From: Candidatus Aenigmatarchaeota archaeon
GTDB taxonomy: Archaea; EX4484-52
Direction: 5' to 3'
Assembly: GCA_023137195.1 (NCBI GenBank)
Contig: JAGLPV010000001.1
Location: 1-42,241, forward strand
Length of the DNA: 42,241 bases
The position numbers and the translations under genes are program-made. This document shows, in pieces, positions 1-7,434 of this stretch. A model generated the notes under the pieces. That model was not told where the DNA came from. It was given only the letters and a program-made list of their open reading frames with translations, and did not search any database. Numbering within the stretch: the stretch's first letter is position 1; the number at the start of each line of letters is the position of its first letter.

Positions 1-437
1 TCACTAATTGCCTTTGTCTGTGATGCGGCATTTTCCCCCAGTTTACTCAATCCAGTCTGTAGCGTGTCAAAAACACCGTCAAATAATTTTTTGTGTGCAG
101 GGCTAATCAAACGATTAAAAGCAGACAATGCATCTCTGACATTAGACACATCAAAATCTTTACCCATTTTAATCCAAGTGGAAAATAAATCTTTATAAGC
201 TATAAAATAGCCAACATTACTTTTGATATGTTCCATCGTTTCAGTATCTTCTTCCGAAAGTGCTTTTATATCTTCATCAGAAAAATCTTCTTTTTTTGCA
301 AACTGTAATTCTTTATCAGATAGGTATTTATAAAAAATAAAGCCCAGAATATAATCCTTGTATTCATTCGCTTCAATTTTTGAACGCATTTGGTTAGCAG
401 ATTCCCATATTTTAGCTGCTAATTGTTGTTTATTCAT
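1..437 (-). CDS. hsdM: Type I restriction-modification methyltransferase subunit HsdM, N-terminal part (cut by window edge)
   Basis: The visible protein begins MNKQQLAAKIWESANQMR and continues through a helical region with YKDYILGFIFYKYLSDKE and, further on, NRLISPAHKKLFDGVFDTL. This is the HsdM N-terminal helical domain that precedes the SAM-dependent N6-adenine methyltransferase domain. HsdM methylates adenine in the recognition site and forms the modification core with HsdS; the catalytic NPPF-type motif lies beyond the left edge. Two in-frame ATGs exist at 446 and 437. An AAAGGA element sits nine bases before the ATG at 437, so I prefer 437. A TATA-like element lies upstream on the same strand. 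The hsdS and hsdR genes would be expected to the left. The family call is fairly safe; intactness cannot be judged. Confidence 0.85.
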   Translation of the reverse strand, partial: MNKQQLAAKIWESANQMRSKIEANEYKDYILGFIFYKYLSDKELQFAKKEDFSDEDIKALSEEDTETMEHIKSNVGYFIAYKDLFSTWIKMGKDFDVSNVRDALSAFNRLISPAHKKLFDGVFDTLQTGLSKLGENAASQTKAIS

Positions 438-494
438 ATTATTCATTCCTTTATCTGCTTTTCATTTTGTTCATAAAATAGATAAGAATTACGT

Positions 495-507: not shown

Positions 508-667
508 CCCCAATAGCTATAGTTATATGTTACTTAACTTTGGCGTTAAGATAAGTTTTGTGAGAGTTAGGGTGAAGCAAACTGTAAGTTTACGTAACCG
601 TTAAATTTTTTGTTATATTCCTCAGAGGGTTGATTTTTAGTGTAATGATGTTTGTCCTCTATCGTTT

Positions 668-830
668 TTTAGGAACTCCCTCTATAAATTAGAAAAATTT
701 GGGAGAGCGAAGCGAACCTCTTAACCTTTGTTAGACGAAATTTTAATTTCGTTGTGGTTTCCGTTGGTCGGTTAAGAGAAGTTTTTCTTTCGAGCGTAGC
801 GAGACTTTATGTCCGTAGGACGGGGGGCTT
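668..830. repeat. Hairpin-module repeat, left copy
   Basis: The first 59 bases (668-726) match 6321-6379 at 56 of 59 positions, and 761-788 matches 6416-6443 at 28 of 28. Between and after these blocks the sequences differ but keep a hairpin in each slot. Elements seen: CTCCC (676-680) with GGGAG (701-705); GCGAAGC (707-713); CTCTTAACC (718-726) with GGTTAAGAG (770-778); ACGAAATT (735-742) with AATTTCGT (745-752); GCGTAGC (794-800); GTCC-GTA-GGAC (811-821). The three-base GNA loops closed by C-G pairs are of the kind known to form exceptionally stable DNA mini-hairpins. Confidence 0.85.
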
Positions 831-864
831 CCGTTTTTTATAAATTAGCGAGGGACAAATTGAA

Positions 865-957
865 TATAACATCAGGGATAAGAGAAGTTTTTGGCGTAGC
901 CAAAAATTTGGATGGAGAAACCTGCAAGGTTTCGGAATCTCTTATCCTCTTGTTATA
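865..957. repeat. Composite palindrome with two GNA-loop hairpins inside
   Basis: Nested arms: TATAACA (865-871) with TGTTATA (951-957), then GGATAAGAG (876-884) with CTCTTATCC (939-947). Inside are two perfect hairpins: TTTTTGGC-GTA-GCCAAAAA (888-906) and GAAACCT-GCA-AGGTTTC (917-933). The same outer arms recur at 6523-6582 upstream of xerA around a different interior. Confidence 0.85.
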
Positions 958-993
958 CGATTTTTCATAGAAAAACGAGCCAAAGTGCAACGG

Positions 994-1076
994 TTTTTGC
1001 GTAGCAAAAATTGGCGAAGAGTAAAATTTCCATTTCCTGATATATTCTGCGAAGCAGACAATATGTCCGTAGGACA
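994..1076. repeat. Cluster of three GNA-loop mini-hairpins
   Basis: Perfect hairpins are TTTTTGC-GTA-GCAAAAA (994-1010), TCTGC-GAA-GCAGA (1046-1058) and TGTCC-GTA-GGACA (1064-1076). The last is followed by a G-run and TTCCGT, as is the GTCC-GTA-GGAC hairpin at 811-821, so that submodule is itself repeated. The 16 bases at 1022-1037 recur inverted at 6503-6518. Confidence 0.8.
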
Positions 1077-1228
1077 GGGGGGAGTTCCGTTTGTTTTTGT
1101 TTCTGAAAAAGAAGATGGAGGGGGCTTTTATTTTGGTTCTTTTTCTAAAAGAACATTTATGATTGAGAAAATAAGTTATAGATACATTTATAAATATTTG
1201 AGTATATTTGTGGTTATGAGGGGTTAAT

Positions 1229-1375
1229 ATGGAATCAAAAAACATCACATTAAGAGTAAATTCTGAATTATATAATAAATATAGACAATTATGCAAGAAG
1301 AAGGGTTTATTAGTTTCACGACAAGTAGAGATAATGATGGAAGAACAATTAAAGAAAGAGGAAGATCAGGTTTAG
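1229..1375 (+). CDS. Small ribbon-helix-helix (CopG/Arc-like) DNA-binding protein
   Basis: A 48-residue protein beginning MESKNITLRVNSELYNKYRQ. The short N-terminal strand with alternating residues (NITLRV) followed by two helices, the second around residues 27-42, is the pattern of a ribbon-helix-helix repressor. Such proteins dimerise and place the N-terminal beta ribbon in the DNA major groove. A GAGGGG ribosome-binding site (1218-1223) lies five bases before the ATG. The stop codon is three bases upstream of the start of the large helicase gene, so the two are almost certainly cotranscribed. By analogy with other small regulators heading defence operons it probably autoregulates the pair, and the palindromes just upstream are possible operators; that is inference. 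The fold call rests on a short sequence. Confidence 0.7.
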   Translation: MESKNITLRVNSELYNKYRQLCKKKGLLVSRQVEIMMEEQLKKEEDQV

Positions 1376-1378
1376 AAT

Positions 1379-4300
1379 ATGGATACTAAACAGACATTGA
1401 ATAAAAAAATAGAATATTGGAAGAAGAAATTAATAGATTTATCCAAAAGAAATAATCTTGTAAATTATCGTTTTACAAAGTCTAAATCCTTAAAAATTAT
1501 TTATCCTAATTTTAAGCAAATCATAGAAGATTTGAATAATGAAAACTCTATACTTTTTTTAAAAAATGAAAGCAAAGAAGCAAAAGAAAGATTATGGTTG
1601 TCTTCTGAAAAAGATTCTGAAGAGAAGAAGAAAGAAGTAGAAGAGGACAGGAAACTAACGACTCTTTATCGTAAAACAAATGAAAATTTTAAAGAATTAG
1701 GAATAAGTACTTGTTTTGTAAGTTTGGGAATCTTGAAATATAAGGAATCTCCCATTTCAGAAATTTATTCGCAAGCTCCTATCTTTCTCTATCCTGTAAC
1801 CTTGAACAGACTTTCCTCTACATCTAAAGATAAACATCGTTTTGAAATTGTTTCAGGTTCAGAAGATATTCAAGTTAATCCTGCATTGGTAGAAAAATTA
1901 TCTCATGATTTTGATATTCATTTACCCGACTTTGAAGAGCAACCGATTGAAGAATATTTAGATTCGATAAAAAAAATAATATCGGGAATGAAAGATTGGA
2001 AAGTTACAGAAGATATTTATATAGATATATTCTCATATCAAAAATATATTATGTTTAAGGATTTAAGTGAACATGATAAACTCTTACATGAAAGTGATTT
2101 AGTCAAAGCATTTATTGGTGATAAAAATGCACTACAAGATGAAATCTCTGAATCTCAAAGAGATGAGTTTGAAGAAGATGCTAATGATGTAGATGTTTTA
2201 CCTGCTGATTCAACTCAAAAAAAGGCGATAGAATTAGCAAAAGCAGGAGTTACCTTTGTTTTACAAGGTCCCCCTGGAACTGGGAAGAGCCAAACAATCT
2301 CAAATATAATTGCTACACTTTTGGAAAAGAAAAAGAAAGTTCTTTTCGTGAGTCAAAAGATGGCTGCTCTTAATGTTGTTCATAAAAGATTAGAAGAGGT
2401 TGGTTTGGGAAGATATTGTTTAAATTTACATAATTACAGAGGAAATAAAAAAGAAATTATTAGACAATTAAATACTGAATTAGAAACTTCTCCAAGAATA
2501 AAAGAAAGTGTTAAAAGATATTCTTTTGCTGACTATATTAATACTCAAAAAGACTTAAATCATTTTTATGACTTTCTATGTAAAAAACATAAGCCTAGAA
2601 CATTATCTATTTATGATATTAGGGGAGAATTAGCAAAACTTCATTCTATCGAAATTCTTGACAAAAATCTTAATGATTTAATTTCTTCTAATGAAGAAAA
2701 GTTTACAATATTATTATCAAAAATTCAAGATTTAGACTTCGTTATTGAAAAAATACCTAGACCAATGGAGAGTATTTATTTTAATTTTAAAACTTCAAAG
2801 AATACAATATTATCAAGAAATAAATTTAAGACATTGGTAGATAGTGCACATCAAATATCAAAAGAGATTTTGGAATTTATCAAAGAAATTAAAAATGAAG
2901 CAAATCTAAACATTCAAACATTAAAACAATTAGAACTATTTTGTGAATTTCATAAAACAGCCAATAAATTAAAAGAGATACCGGAATTTTTTATTTCTGA
3001 AAACTTTGAAGATTATAAAAAGATAATTTCAGATTTAAGTAAAAATATCTTAAAAATTAACGAACTTAAAGAATCTATTGAAGAAATTAAAAAAGGATTC
3101 CCTGAATTTTTCATGTCTGATGATTTCAATGATTATAAAAAAATAATTATCGATTTGAATAAAAATTTAGTGGAGATTAACAACGCTAAACTTAATCTTA
3201 CTCAAAAAGTAATAGAAATGTTTATTGATGAAAATACTGATAATTACGAAAAAACCTTTAAGGAAACTTCATTTTTATCGCGAGTTTTTAATAAAGAATA
3301 CAAAACCGCTAAAAAAGAATTAGAAAGGTTTTCTAAAGAAAAAATAAATCATAATGGTTGGATAAAATTATTTGAGTTAAAGAAGGATTATAAAAAATAC
3401 TTAGATAAGCATTTAAATATAGAAACTCAAAATAAAAACTGTATTAAAAATTTGGGAGATATTTATTCTGAGAATAATTTAAACAATCTCAATAAAAATG
3501 CAGAAGAATTTCAATTTGAAAAATGGTCTGAATTTAAAAAAGAGTTAGCTGAAAAATTAAAAATACACTCCGAGATAGAAACTCAAAATAAAAACGATAT
3601 TAAAAATTTGGGAGATATTTATTCTGAGAATAATTTAAACAATCTCAATAAAAAAGCAGAAGAATTTTCAGAGACATTTAAGAATTCTAAAAATTTATCT
3701 GAGAAATCAGTTAAACTAATTAATTTTTGGTTATCAGAAAAAGAGCGAGAAAATTCATTAAATGAATTAAAAGACAAGATTAAAAATATTGATGATTATT
3801 TATTTAAATCAATATTAAGTGATACTGAAAATCTAGCAGAGATAGAAGACAAAATCCATGAATTTATTGAAAATATAAAATGTTTGGATGATGTTTTAAT
3901 ATTCAAAGAACAATATTCTTCTCTAAACGAAGAGATAAAAGAATTTGTGAAAGAATATTTTAAGGAAAATATAATATCCAAATTAAGTTCTGTATTTTTA
4001 AAAGCATATTATTTGCAATTACTTGAAGAAATTTTAAAACAAAATAACCTGCCCTCCCCCAAAAATAAGGTGGAAATGTTTAGAGAAAAAGATTTTGAAG
4101 TTAGAGATATTAAACGATATAAAATTATGGATTCTATTGAACAAGGTCAGCCCTCTGTAAATTATCATAGTTATGGTGTGAATGATGTTTCTATTTTAAA
4201 AAGAGAAAATGAAAAGAAAAGAAGATTAAAACCAATAAGAGATTTACTTGAAGAGATTCCAGATTTAATATTTTCTTTAAAACCTTGTTTCATGATGAGT

Positions 4301-6187
4301 CCTCTTTCAGTTAGTCAATATATAAATCCCAATAAGATAAAGTTTGATGTAGTTATCTTTGATGAAGCATCACAAATTATGCCCGAAGATGCTGTTTCTT
4401 GTTTGATGAGGTCAAAACAAGCTATTGTTGTGGGAGATACACAACAATTACCACCAACTAACTTTTTTATGAGCCGTCAGGATGATGAAATTGTTGAAGA
4501 AGAAATTGAAGATTTAGAGAGTTTTCTAAGTGAATGTAGTACTAAATTTAGAAGTAAACCTCTTCTTTGGCATTATCGAAGCAAAAATGAACATTTAATT
4601 GCATTTTCAAATAGATTTTTTTATGAACATAGATTGATAACATTTCCTAATGCAAAAATAAAAGATGATTCCGGATTGGACTTTGTTCATGTGAAAACAG
4701 GAGTATATGACCGGGGTAAATCTAGGAAGAATAGAGTTGAAGCAAGAGAAACAGTAAAGAAATACAAAGAATTAAGGGAAAAATTCCCTAAAAAATCAAT
4801 AGGAATTATTGCATTTAGTATCGCACAAGAAAATGCAATTAGAGAAGAATTTAGAGTTGTAGGAATAAATATAGAAGAATCGTTAGATTCTTATCATGAA
4901 GCTTTATTTGTTAAAAATCTTGAAACCGTTCAGGGTGATGAGAGAGATATAATTTTAATAAGTATTGGTTATGGTAAAGATTCTTTTGGAAAATTAAGTT
5001 ATCATTTTGGACCTCTCAATAGAGAAGGGGGTTATAAGAGATTAAATGTTGCTATAACTAGATCAAGATTTAAAACAGTAGTAATATCTTCTATTTCTCC
5101 AGAAGAGTTAGATGAGGATAAAATAAATGTTGATGGAGTTCGTTATTTGAAATATTATCTTGATTATGCAAAAAACAAAGATTTTAATAAATTTTTACAG
5201 ACAACAGAAGGATTAGACTTTGATTCAAGTTTTGAAGAATCTGTTTATGAAGTATTAACAAATGAAGGATTTTCTGTTAGCACCCAAGTTGGCTGTTCGG
5301 GTTATAGAGTAGATTTAGCAATAAAACATCCTAAAAAACCAGGAGTCTATATCTTAGGGATTGAATGTGATGGGGCACAATATCACTCTTCAAGATTTGC
5401 AAGAGATAGAGATAAAATCAGGCAAGGAATTTTAGAAAGTCTTGGTTGGAATATTCATAGAATTTGGTCTGATGATTGGTTGAATAACCGAGAATATGAA
5501 ATAAAAAAGATAAAAGAAAAAGTTGATGCTTTATTAAGGTCAAAGAAAGAAAATTCACAAGATGAATTAAAATTTGAAAAAGTTGAGGATGTAGAAGATT
5601 TTAAAGAAGTTTCTTTAAAGGATAAATATGGTCAATATGAACTTGCTGAATTGCCAAAGTCCGGAACAAAAATAGAATTTGATGGTTATGGTGATATGGT
5701 TTGGGGTGGCAGCAAAGCAAAAGAATTAATGCTGTCTGTTCTGGAAATTGAATCGCCTATTGAAAAAGAATTATTGTATAAAAGAGTTCTTAGTTCATTT
5801 GGAATAAATAAACTCGGTGCGAGGCTAAGGAGAAATTTTGATGATTTGATTAATCAAATGAAAAGAGAATATCCTAATATTTATGTTTCAGGAGAAACGG
5901 TTTCTATAGACCAAATTGAAGGAATTTGTTCTATAAGAATTTCAAAAGAATTTCAAAGACCATTTATTTTAATTCCTAAAGAAGAAATTGGTGGAGCTAT
6001 TGCCGATATTTTAAAAAATACTTTTGGAGCAACAAAAGAAACATTAGTTGCAGATATTGCAAAAGGTATTTTCCATAACAATAGAACTGGTGGGAAAATT
6101 AAAGCGAAGATTGAAGAAGCAATAAAATATTTAGAAAAAGAAAAAATTGTCGATGTTAATGGTGGGAAAATATTTTTGATGAAATAG
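1379..6187 (+). CDS. Hhe-type antiviral protein: DUF4011, SF1 helicase, Vsr/MTES_1575-like nuclease, DUF3320
   Basis: A 1602-residue multidomain protein. The N-terminus has WKKKLIDLSKRNNLVNYR, the DUF4011 signature. A split superfamily 1 helicase follows: Walker A GPPGTGKS near residue 297, Walker B FDEAS near 995, VVGDTQQLPPT near 1018 and a late motif LNVAITRSR near 1225. Between the helicase halves lies a long coiled coil (about 430-920) that contains a recent internal duplication. Residues about 1285-1370 form a restriction-endonuclease-like fold with YRVDLAI, then GIECDG and DRDKIRQGILESLGW, resembling Vsr/MTES_1575 nucleases. The C-terminal 160 residues match DUF3320. This order is what I recall for the single-gene Hhe phage-defence system, so a DNA-translocating nuclease against invading DNA is likely. 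All helicase and nuclease motifs look intact. Confidence 0.85.
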   Translation: MDTKQTLNKKIEYWKKKLIDLSKRNNLVNYRFTKSKSLKIIYPNFKQIIEDLNNENSILFLKNESKEAKERLWLSSEKDSEEKKKEVEEDRKLTTLYRKTNENFKELGISTCFVSLGILKYKESPISEIYSQAPIFLYPVTLNRLSSTSKDKHRFEIVSGSEDIQVNPALVEKLSHDFDIHLPDFEEQPIEEYLDSIKKIISGMKDWKVTEDIYIDIFSYQKYIMFKDLSEHDKLLHESDLVKAFIGDKNALQDEISESQRDEFEEDANDVDVLPADSTQKKAIELAKAGVTFVLQGPPGTGKSQTISNIIATLLEKKKKVLFVSQKMAALNVVHKRLEEVGLGRYCLNLHNYRGNKKEIIRQLNTELETSPRIKESVKRYSFADYINTQKDLNHFYDFLCKKHKPRTLSIYDIRGELAKLHSIEILDKNLNDLISSNEEKFTILLSKIQDLDFVIEKIPRPMESIYFNFKTSKNTILSRNKFKTLVDSAHQISKEILEFIKEIKNEANLNIQTLKQLELFCEFHKTANKLKEIPEFFISENFEDYKKIISDLSKNILKINELKESIEEIKKGFPEFFMSDDFNDYKKIIIDLNKNLVEINNAKLNLTQKVIEMFIDENTDNYEKTFKETSFLSRVFNKEYKTAKKELERFSKEKINHNGWIKLFELKKDYKKYLDKHLNIETQNKNCIKNLGDIYSENNLNNLNKNAEEFQFEKWSEFKKELAEKLKIHSEIETQNKNDIKNLGDIYSENNLNNLNKKAEEFSETFKNSKNLSEKSVKLINFWLSEKERENSLNELKDKIKNIDDYLFKSILSDTENLAEIEDKIHEFIENIKCLDDVLIFKEQYSSLNEEIKEFVKEYFKENIISKLSSVFLKAYYLQLLEEILKQNNLPSPKNKVEMFREKDFEVRDIKRYKIMDSIEQGQPSVNYHSYGVNDVSILKRENEKKRRLKPIRDLLEEIPDLIFSLKPCFMMSPLSVSQYINPNKIKFDVVIFDEASQIMPEDAVSCLMRSKQAIVVGDTQQLPPTNFFMSRQDDEIVEEEIEDLESFLSECSTKFRSKPLLWHYRSKNEHLIAFSNRFFYEHRLITFPNAKIKDDSGLDFVHVKTGVYDRGKSRKNRVEARETVKKYKELREKFPKKSIGIIAFSIAQENAIREEFRVVGINIEESLDSYHEALFVKNLETVQGDERDIILISIGYGKDSFGKLSYHFGPLNREGGYKRLNVAITRSRFKTVVISSISPEELDEDKINVDGVRYLKYYLDYAKNKDFNKFLQTTEGLDFDSSFEESVYEVLTNEGFSVSTQVGCSGYRVDLAIKHPKKPGVYILGIECDGAQYHSSRFARDRDKIRQGILESLGWNIHRIWSDDWLNNREYEIKKIKEKVDALLRSKKENSQDELKFEKVEDVEDFKEVSLKDKYGQYELAELPKSGTKIEFDGYGDMVWGGSKAKELMLSVLEIESPIEKELLYKRVLSSFGINKLGARLRRNFDDLINQMKREYPNIYVSGETVSIDQIEGICSIRISKEFQRPFILIPKEEIGGAIADILKNTFGATKETLVADIAKGIFHNNRTGGKIKAKIEEAIKYLEKEKIVDVNGGKIFLMK
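3419..3667 (+). repeat. In-frame 156-bp-period duplication inside the Hhe coiled coil
   Basis: Bases 3419-3511 and 3575-3667 agree at 90 of 93 positions, offset by 156 bases (52 codons). The encoded segment contains KNLGDIYSENNLNNLN in both copies. Such near-identity at DNA level marks a recent tandem duplication. An older, diverged protein repeat lies upstream: IPEFFISENFEDYKKII and FPEFFMSDDFNDYKKII. Confidence 0.9.
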
Positions 6188-6205
6188 AGACGCTTCAAAT
6201 AAATT

Positions 6206-6302
6206 TCTTTTTCGCAGAAAAAGACTATCTGTCCGAAGGACTAAAAGCCCCCTCTTAATAAATTTCGAGCAACGAAGTTGTGAGTCAATATGTGCGTGGC
6301 AC
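6206..6302. repeat. Cluster of four three-base-loop mini-hairpins after the Hhe gene
   Basis: Perfect hairpins are TCTTTTTC-GCA-GAAAAAGA (6206-6224), GTCC-GAA-GGAC (6231-6241), CAAC-GAA-GTTG (6270-6280) and GTGC-GTG-GCAC (6292-6302). Stem sequences differ completely; loop size stays three and three of four loops are GNA. Confidence 0.8.
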
Positions 6303-6320
6303 TGCATTATATTTTTTTCG

Positions 6321-6480
6321 TTTAGGAACTCCCCATATAAATTAGAAAAATTTGGGAGAGCGAAGCGAATCTCTTAACCATAGTTATAGAAAGTGCGAAG
6401 CATTTTCCTGTCGTCCCGTTGGTCGGTTAAGAGAAGTTTTTCTACGAGGCGAAGCCGAGACAATCTGTCCCGAAGGGACG
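6321..6480. repeat. Hairpin-module repeat, right copy
   Basis: The partner of 668-830 in the same orientation. Conserved frame: CTCCC (6329-6333) with GGGAG (6354-6358), GCGAAGC (6360-6366), CTCTTAACC (6371-6379) with GGTTAAGAG (6425-6433). Variable slots are filled by TGC-GAA-GCA (6394-6402), GGC-GAA-GCC (6448-6456) and GTCCC-GAA-GGGAC (6467-6479). Stems changed on both arms relative to the left copy while pairing was kept. Confidence 0.85.
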
Positions 6481-6522
6481 AACTCCCCCCTTTTTTATTT
6501 AAGGAAATGGAAATTTTATTGC

Positions 6523-6582
6523 GTATAACAAGAGATTAAACGGAATAAATTACGTTTAATCTACCGATATAGGATGTTATAC
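6523..6582. repeat. Palindrome upstream of xerA
   Basis: Outer arms GTATAACA (6523-6530) and TGTTATAC (6575-6582) enclose a perfect 10-bp inverted repeat, AGATTAAACG (6533-6542) and CGTTTAATCT (6553-6562), with a 10-base spacer. The outer arms match those of the palindrome at 865-957. Closeness to a tyrosine recombinase gene makes a recombinase-binding or att/dif-like site possible, but this is unproven. Confidence 0.7.
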
Positions 6583-6586
6583 TTAC

Positions 6587-6600
6587 TTTTATATATTTAT
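6587..6600 (+). promoter_or_regulatory. TATA box of xerA
   Basis: TTTTATATATTTAT is centred about 23 bases upstream of the ATG at 6616, the spacing of a leaderless archaeal transcript. It supports 6616 over the in-frame ATG at 6574, which would lie upstream of this box and inside the palindrome. Confidence 0.6.
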
Positions 6601-6615
6601 TTGCAAATAAAAATA

Positions 6616-7434
6616 ATGGATTTGACTGAAAGTGAAATTTTTTTATTAAAATTAAGAAGAGAGATGGAAATAAGAAATTTTTCTTCAAAAACAGTCAAAA
6701 CATATCTTTATTTCGTGGAAAAGTTTCTCGAATATTTGGGGGATTCGGAACTTTGTGAAGAGACAGTTAAAAATTATATGCAAGAACAAATAATGAAAAA
6801 AGAGCCATCTACGGTTTCCTTAAATCTTAGTGCTATAAAATTCTTTTTTAATAAAGTGTTGTATAAAAATATAGACGTTCCTAATCCAAGGAAAAATAAG
6901 AAAATTCCTGAAGTTTTGACTGTTGGGGAAGTCGGAAGATTGATAGGCGCTATAGATAACATCAAGCACAGGTTGATGATAAAAATGCTTTATGGCTGTG
7001 GGTTAAGAGTGAGCGAACTTGTAAATCTGAAAAAATCGGATTTGAATTTTGAGGAAAATCTTATTCATATACGGCTTGCAAAAGGGAGAAAGGACAGGTT
7101 TGTCAAGATTCCTGAGTCCGTCAAAGAACAACTGGAAAGCTATTGTAAACTTGAGGAAAAGGACACATTATTTTTATCGCAAAGAGGAGGGAAATTATCA
7201 ACCGCAACAATACAAAAAATAATCAAAAATTTTTCAAAAAAGGCAGGAATAAAAAAGAATATTTCTCCTCACACATTAAGGCACAGCTTTGCTACACATC
7301 TGCTTGAAGCAGGAATAGATTTGAAGATTATACAAAAATTGCTTGGTCATTCAGACATCAAGACTACGCAGATATATCTGCATGTTTCCAATCAATTGAT
7401 AAGGAATGTGAAAAGTCCGCTTGATTATTTGTAA
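6616..7434 (+). CDS. xerA: Tyrosine recombinase XerA
   Basis: A 272-residue integrase of normal archaeal Xer length. It has an N-terminal SAM-like core-binding domain (residues about 5-85) and a catalytic domain with all expected residues: R131 in CGLRVSEL, K156 in LAKGRKDR, H219 and R222 in SPHTLRHSFATHLL, H245 in LLGHSDIKT and nucleophile Y254 in TTQIYLHVS. In archaea the single Xer protein resolves chromosome dimers at a dif site. The C-terminal tail ending in SPLDYL suits the chromosomal Xer group rather than a phage integrase. A TATA box fits leaderless expression from 6616. The palindrome upstream and the hairpin repeats flanking the neighbouring defence genes raise the question of a recombination role in the island. 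The gene stands alone, ahead of the hydrogenase genes. Confidence 0.85.
   Translation: MDLTESEIFLLKLRREMEIRNFSSKTVKTYLYFVEKFLEYLGDSELCEETVKNYMQEQIMKKEPSTVSLNLSAIKFFFNKVLYKNIDVPNPRKNKKIPEVLTVGEVGRLIGAIDNIKHRLMIKMLYGCGLRVSELVNLKKSDLNFEENLIHIRLAKGRKDRFVKIPESVKEQLESYCKLEEKDTLFLSQRGGKLSTATIQKIIKNFSKKAGIKKNISPHTLRHSFATHLLEAGIDLKIIQKLLGHSDIKTTQIYLHVSNQLIRNVKSPLDYL

Follow-up and report, generated by a model that had tools for sequence, protein, structure and literature searches.

The DNA considered here, a 42,241-nucleotide stretch of contig JAGLPV010000001.1 (assembly GCA_023137195.1) from a Candidatus Aenigmatarchaeota archaeon, hereafter the window, contains a gene for an Hhe-like helicase-nuclease that is preceded by a small ribbon-helix-helix (RHH)-type gene and flanked on both sides by short hairpins with three-base GNA loops. 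With a probability of roughly 0.78, we consider that these hairpins mark an integron-like cassette array, in which a neighbouring XerA-family tyrosine recombinase lacking the I2 helix is the likely integrase. Several of the hairpins form arms of attC-type integron cassette sites or lie directly next to them, and RHH-Hhe is the first cassette beside the tyrosine recombinase, in classical integron geometry (Table 1). Reading leftward from the recombinase, a candidate attI (6521-6590) is followed by a cassette of about 5.7 kb that carries RHH and Hhe, is bounded by the inverted repeats X and X' and ends with the site at 864-960, then by a gene-less cassette of 0.33 kb ending with the site at 532-620, and then by a cassette with HsdM.

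The hairpins were counted as C(GNA)G triloops in positions 668-1100 and 6188-6574 and compared with dinucleotide shuffles. For stems of at least 2, 3, 4 and 5 bp the plus strand contains 14, 11, 9 and 6 of them, with 0.93, 0.27, 0.08 and 0.016 expected from the shuffles, while the minus strand contains 2, 1, 0 and 0. The family is thus strand-polar, a feature absent from the initial annotation. That annotation had described a family of such hairpins beside Hhe, and their excess is borne out (9 compared with 0.08 for stems of at least 4 bp on the plus strand), and the three it quoted are found at 811-821, 1046-1058 and 6467-6479; it had named a density equal to that of shuffled sequence as the result that would speak against it, and the density lies clearly above the shuffles. 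Counts covering about 1.25 Mb of the window's genome show that, between genes, CGAAG loops exceed the level in shuffled intergenic DNA 12.6-fold (stems of 4 bp or more) and 23-fold (5 bp or more), and that in coding DNA their enrichment is only about 1.5-2-fold. Triloop density is approximately tenfold greater at less than 400 bp from an attC-like site, and all 14 triloops there lie on the folding strand of the site. In genome G000, hairpins with AAA/TTT loops, CATTCAACAAAGTTGAATG-TGCAGAAAATC..., make up another dispersed family (e.g., L066:9404-9458, L042:2494-2549, and L051:18311-18351), with 23 CAAAG triloops with stems of at least 5 bp, for which 1.4 were expected.

Other intergenic GNA hairpins share the frame GAG-AAG-{hairpin}-TTTGG-RNGGA-{hairpin}-GAAY-CTC, which lies within a variable stem and within TATAACA...TGTTATA. 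Read on the opposite strand, this gives the order R''-L''...L'-R', with AAC at the 3' end of R'' and GTT at the 5' end of R'. The intergenic elements are attC-type cassette recombination sites; in the window, the plus strand is the folding (bottom) strand of the site at 864-960, and R'' to R' is read on the minus strand. Sites were called with purpose-built covariance models, a loose descriptor search for the junction having returned thousands of chance matches. The first model, built from ten copies, yielded 34 clear copies in the first genomes searched, and the second, at E values up to 1e-4, has matches in 25 of 34 genomes of the phylum and in 10 of 12 genera, as well as in all three archaeal genomes that were found via the recombinase; it gave no site in seven other genomes. 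The nearest named relative is 'Candidatus Aenigmatarchaeota archaeon AUK108', which points to this phylum for the window as well. About 100 covarying copies of the 864-960 site were collected from Aenigmatarchaeota-group genomes. In an alignment of 59 copies, mostly from genera outside the training set, 88.9% of cells pair and the covariation score is 0.495 compared with 0.166 when shuffled and at most 0.125 when slid, values that are biased towards the structure by the fitting of the alignment to the model. Single-stranded DNA folds of five copies reached z values of -3.4 to -7.0 over both strands, and in each of the five the bottom strand was lower in energy than its partner. The tip of the P2 arm was scored as a C(GNA)G triloop in 39 of 99 copies. 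Rfam gave no match at gathering score in the window and nothing relevant at E values up to 5 in the neighbouring loci.

The sites share with bacterial attC sites (the Vibrio cholerae repeats and attC-aadA1/7) the R''-L''-L'-R' layout, the AAC/GTT cores, an unpaired spacer, and a variable tip. The bottom strand of attC-aadA1 bears a 5'-GAA triplet at its tip (PMC2727003), which is matched by the GNA loops described here. Unlike bacterial attC, they have a junction with conserved AAG, TTTGG, and GAAY, and a bulge of 2-3 nt located mainly on the R'-L' arm. The L helix is mostly bulge-free, no extrahelical base being seen there in the alignment to our own model, and the junction could replace the extrahelical bases of the R''-L'' arm. 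They are further set apart by the X/X' stem and by accessory hairpins, the X/X' repeats having been sought in archaeal cassettes only.

Neighbouring sites less than 4 kb apart are on the same strand in 50 of 52 pairs, with a median spacing of 760 bp that resembles the spacing of genes, and textbook series of alternating genes and attC sites are present at the loci L119 and L186. The cargo is mixed and includes phosphomannomutase, amidohydrolase, pyridoxal phosphate-dependent enzyme, peptidase, and GNAT acetyltransferase genes; a link to defence genes as such was therefore rejected. These findings change how the initial annotation is to be read. It had regarded the hairpins as a repeat family of their own, of which some prove to be sub-structures of longer elements with covarying pairing; it had drawn an analogy to mitochondrial double-hairpin elements, where the core element belongs to the known kind of attC-type sites; and it had seen the hairpins as bracketing a defence gene specially, while the same sites part many unrelated cassette genes. 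Among the origins it offered, the recombination substrate is supported and a new selfish hairpin family is not, and its remark that GNA loops form stable single-stranded hairpins fits the folding of single-stranded DNA. One attC-like site was also seen on IMGVR_UViG_3300025669_000074 (L205:12954-13041), a contig classed as viral and the sole one to emerge from one scan of viral contigs.

Recombination via circular cassettes has left footprints in the sequences. Among 389 BLAST matches spanning a site in each partner (both directions counted), homology continued for more than 30 bp beyond the R'' side 146 times and beyond the R' side twice, which fits cassettes with the attC site at one end. 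The window and genome G003 are nearly identical up to position 6530, where the similarity ends with GCGTATAACA at the recombinase-proximal R box, and are unrelated beyond; G003 resembles genome G002 solely on the other side of that R box, giving a chimeric junction. R'' complements the distant 5' end of its own cassette better than the physically adjacent R' (55 cassettes, P=5e-6), and the match stops sharply after 8 nt (58 cassettes), as it should if cassettes are circularised by joining at G^TT. Sequence footprints point to the crossover at G^TT of R' via circular cassettes that is known from integrons. One cassette of 0.5 kb is 88% identical between G000 and G003. Inverted G/C-tract motifs, GGGGGGAGTTCC and GGAACTCCCC, flank cassette cargo in the window (1078-1090 and 6326-6336) and at L077 (near 885 and 4980), and in a cassette with such borders both ends are alike in G000 and G003 and the genes between them are different.

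Many cassettes moreover carry a largely private inverted repeat, in which 12-19 nt near the cassette 5' end (X) are exactly complementary to a stretch upstream of the cassette's own attC site (X'). Repeats of at least 12 nt occur in 57% of 54 cassettes and in 1% of mismatched ends, and X mostly begins 4 nt past the end of the R' match. Because this pattern had been noticed in the same data, a second test with a narrowed, fixed search region was run on 14 cassettes from other loci, mostly of genome G035, and found the repeats in 7 of 14 cassettes and 0 of 182 mismatched pairs (P=1e-4); the P values are indicative, since mismatched pairs are not mutually independent. The sequence of X/X' differs among most cassettes and only a few share one. 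In the predicted single-stranded folds of seven joined cassettes, which were picked rather than sampled, the R stem, accessory hairpins, and attC site are all enclosed in a large cruciform that X/X' closes; the module at 961-1021 is predicted to fold separately beside attC in the joined circle, and similar modules were seen by eye beside other copies. According to these models, about half of the cassettes would, once circular, form a cruciform of about 200 nt in which X/X' lengthens attC. X/X' may serve to stabilise the folded circle or to draw the cassette ends together in the array, and the repeats resemble traces left in the genome by circular cassette intermediates.

The recombinase of the window has conserved catalytic residues. 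It scores above the XerA cut-off and below the IntI cut-off (NCBIfam NF040815 and TIGR02249, respectively), and the IntI-specific region with the I2 helix is missing, with 17 residues at this place compared with 61 in IntI4; an assignment as IntI was rejected on both grounds. The same gap is seen in the well-covered recombinases of the 34 genomes, and none of the recombinases in these genomes, which are incomplete metagenome-assembled genomes, exceeds the TIGR02249 cut-off. Of 36 recombinases, seven are found at most 5 kb from a site, with 1.15 expected (P=9e-5); one of the seven is a vertical-looking copy on C45, and the window enzyme is outside the seven because it is 5.7 kb away from the site at 864. 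In the phylogenetic tree, the seven placeable enzymes labelled as array-associated all fall into one half without forming a single clade, and the second G000 copy (C45) groups with vertical-looking XerA, with the window enzyme across the split, whose support is modest (80/88). A recombinase of the array half is present in 11 of 25 genomes with sites and in 0 of 9 without (P=0.016). In the window, G003, G007, and L119 it is the 5' end of the recombinase that points towards the array; recombinase and array are arranged differently on C65 of G007 and C43 of G029. Two array-adjacent recombinases from different families (L110:12413-13234 and L185:12775-13596) are joined by short branches and show 78% DNA identity over 870 bp, a closeness that suggests horizontal transfer of the platform. 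Upstream of the vertical-looking XerA copy (C45), at L010:11060-11090, the palindrome TTGCGTATAATATACATTATACGCAA is a candidate dif site; its arms are similar to the R box of the cassettes.

In the mechanism that we propose, the fold of one DNA strand of the site would comprise two stems, one of R boxes and one of L boxes, together with a three-way junction bearing two arms, of which P2 would often be tipped by a GNA triloop. The I2-less XerA-family enzyme beside the array, as the likely integrase, would cleave the R' box at G^TT, so that genes leave or enter the array in circular form. Within such a circle, R'' would meet its own R', and in approximately half of the cassettes the largely private X/X' would prolong the stem into a cruciform of some 200 nt. 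The covarying structure, the array order, the crossover position, the circle-specific pairing, and the missing IntI-specific region are the parts for which the genomes themselves provide support; the neighbouring recombinase would presumably be the acting enzyme and single-stranded DNA presumably its substrate. Weighing against this reading, I2 is, according to one report, required for IntI1 to capture cassettes (PMC7790495), so that the role of the neighbouring enzyme is one that we infer, and the incomplete assemblies may hide an IntI. Furthermore, no recombinase at all is present on many of the contigs that carry arrays, the orientation of cassette genes is only mildly biased (57 canonical, 32 not), and several GNA hairpins fall outside the modelled sites, the integron model giving no account of them, of the reversed-order elements described below, of the TGTCCGNAGGACA module, or of the hairpins at 6206-6280.

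Among the alternatives, the one that survives best, unlikely as we judge it, is that these are attC sites mobilised in trans by an ordinary IntI of other organisms, and that the neighbouring Xer-like enzyme acts, for instance, in dimer resolution or plasmid functions. The bacterial IntI1 can indeed recombine archaeal attC sites (PMC9668308), and the neighbouring recombinase has no I2. On current definitions, the arrays count as clusters of attC sites lacking integron integrases (CALINs): our own attC model gives two or more attC sites spaced by less than 4 kb, and no IntI with the IntI-specific domain, by which a complete integron is recognised, was found in the 34 genomes. Single-strand folding with R and L boxes (under our own covariance model) and uniform attC orientation within an array (50 compared with 2) are integron features that the arrays display. 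Against mobilisation in trans, array-adjacent recombinases are commoner than chance, the classical geometry recurs in several genomes, the array enzymes lie across the tree from copies resembling vertical XerA, and the search of the 34 genomes gave no IntI. It is far less probable that the elements are dispersed palindromes resembling miniature inverted-repeat transposable elements or repetitive extragenic palindromes, or double-stranded dif/pdif-like modules targeted by Xer, with the hairpins as terminators or by-products: the copies are dispersed and the R boxes resemble the arms of the dif-like palindrome at L010, but the copies are gene-spaced and on the same strand, homology breaks on one side of the site rather than at both element ends, and the stems vary in sequence while their structure is kept. 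A structured RNA repeated between genes, such as a riboswitch, terminator or ribozyme family, for which the strong covariation would be as suitable as for single-stranded DNA, can practically be set aside, as it has no Rfam match and leaves the one-sided homology and the pairing of R'' with the distant 5' end unaccounted for.

The preferred integron-like reading places the arrays beside known systems. Archaeal integrons and attC sites, including those of Aenigmatarchaeota, were reported by Ghaly et al. (2022; PMC9668308), so that the sites described here are of a known kind, and attC arrays in archaea are common to both studies. The integrases of that study were chosen by the IntI-specific domain, whereas the array-adjacent recombinases found here are without it. 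With archaeal XerA/dif the arrays have the recombinase family in common, and Pyrococcus XerA binds stem-loop att sites too, with lower affinity (PMC8371274). Unlike XerA/dif, there are many folded sites and gene cassettes instead of one dif, and in the tree the enzymes are placed away from the copies that look vertical. In a partial literature search, we found neither integrases without I2 next to arrays of this kind nor X/X' repeats private to single cassettes reported.

Table 1. Features of the window that belong to, or adjoin, the cassette array.
Feature	Position	Strand	Evidence
HsdM N-terminal gene, truncated by window edge; cargo of a further cassette	3-446	-	PF12161, E 3e-17
Weaker attC-type site, next cassette	532-620	+	Covariance model R2, E 9e-5
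Second reversed-order element	683-815	+	BLAST 80% over 137 bp; hairpin 811-821 at edge
attC-type site of the RHH-Hhe cassette	864-960	+	Covariance model E 1e-17; single-stranded DNA fold z = -7.0; family covariation
Arms of the 864-960 site	P2 hairpin 888-906 (GTA loop); P3 hairpin 917-933 (GCA loop)		
Accessory module between R'' and X'	961-1021	+	Includes hairpin 994-1010
X'	1022-1038	+	17 nt, exact reverse complement of X (6502-6518); cassette-end test
Two GNA hairpins (1046-1058, 1064-1076)	1046-1076	+	Module recurring beside other cassettes; hairpin scan
Small gene, 48 aa, weak ribbon-helix-helix-type similarity	1229-1375	+	NCBIfam below cut-off, RelB/DinJ E 0.008
Hhe/ProA-like helicase-nuclease, 1602 aa, first-cassette cargo	1379-6187	+	Pfam DUF4011, AAA_11/12, MTES_1575
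Three GNA hairpins (6206-6224, 6231-6241, 6270-6280)	6206-6280	+	Inside Hhe cassette; hairpin scan
Reversed-order attC-like element	6331-6480	+	GNA hairpins 6394-6402, 6448-6456, 6467-6479; BLAST copies
X, start of Hhe cassette	6502-6518	+	Pairs with X' at 1022-1038
Recombinase-proximal R box and simple hairpin, candidate attI	6521-6590	+	R box 6521-6530, inferred crossover 6528/6529
XerA-family tyrosine recombinase	6616-7434	+	NF040815 257.7 bits (cut-off 220); TIGR02249 215.9 (cut-off 265)

The Hhe gene is transcribed opposite to the array direction; it falls below the cut-offs of NCBIfam ProA and Hhe and is listed as PDC-S37 in PADLOC. The reversed-order elements consist of two attC-like halves in swapped order and usually lie about 50 nt from an R' box. 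Besides the two copies in the window, others are located at L077:4976-5142, L010:13810-13949, and L188:3901-4037, and BLAST revealed 92% identity across genomes that belong to different families. The idea that they form a functional structure in circular permutation was rejected, the stem being broken in the G003 copy; in the window copies the expected stem is missing, and their z values of -0.9 and -2.9 are no better than shuffles and moderate, respectively.

While archaeal attC sites were already known, the array-adjacent I2-less recombinases and the cassette-private X/X' repeats appear new within the literature searched. A published account sees in the I2 helix the novelty through which an integron integrase arose from a Xer-like enzyme (PMC7790495), and the clear cassette footprints beside I2-less enzymes make the view that I2 is necessary testable. 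Surveys selecting for the IntI-specific domain would miss these recombinases, and X/X' could help to delimit archaeal cassettes, carriers of defence genes included. There is about an even chance that the arrays represent a separate DPANN integron lineage, in which an I2-less Xer-type integrase would act on folded single-stranded sites and circle-specific cruciforms of attC, accessory hairpins, and X/X' would compensate. If true, this lineage would offer another solution than the bacterial one of I2 and extrahelical bases, or a forerunner of it.

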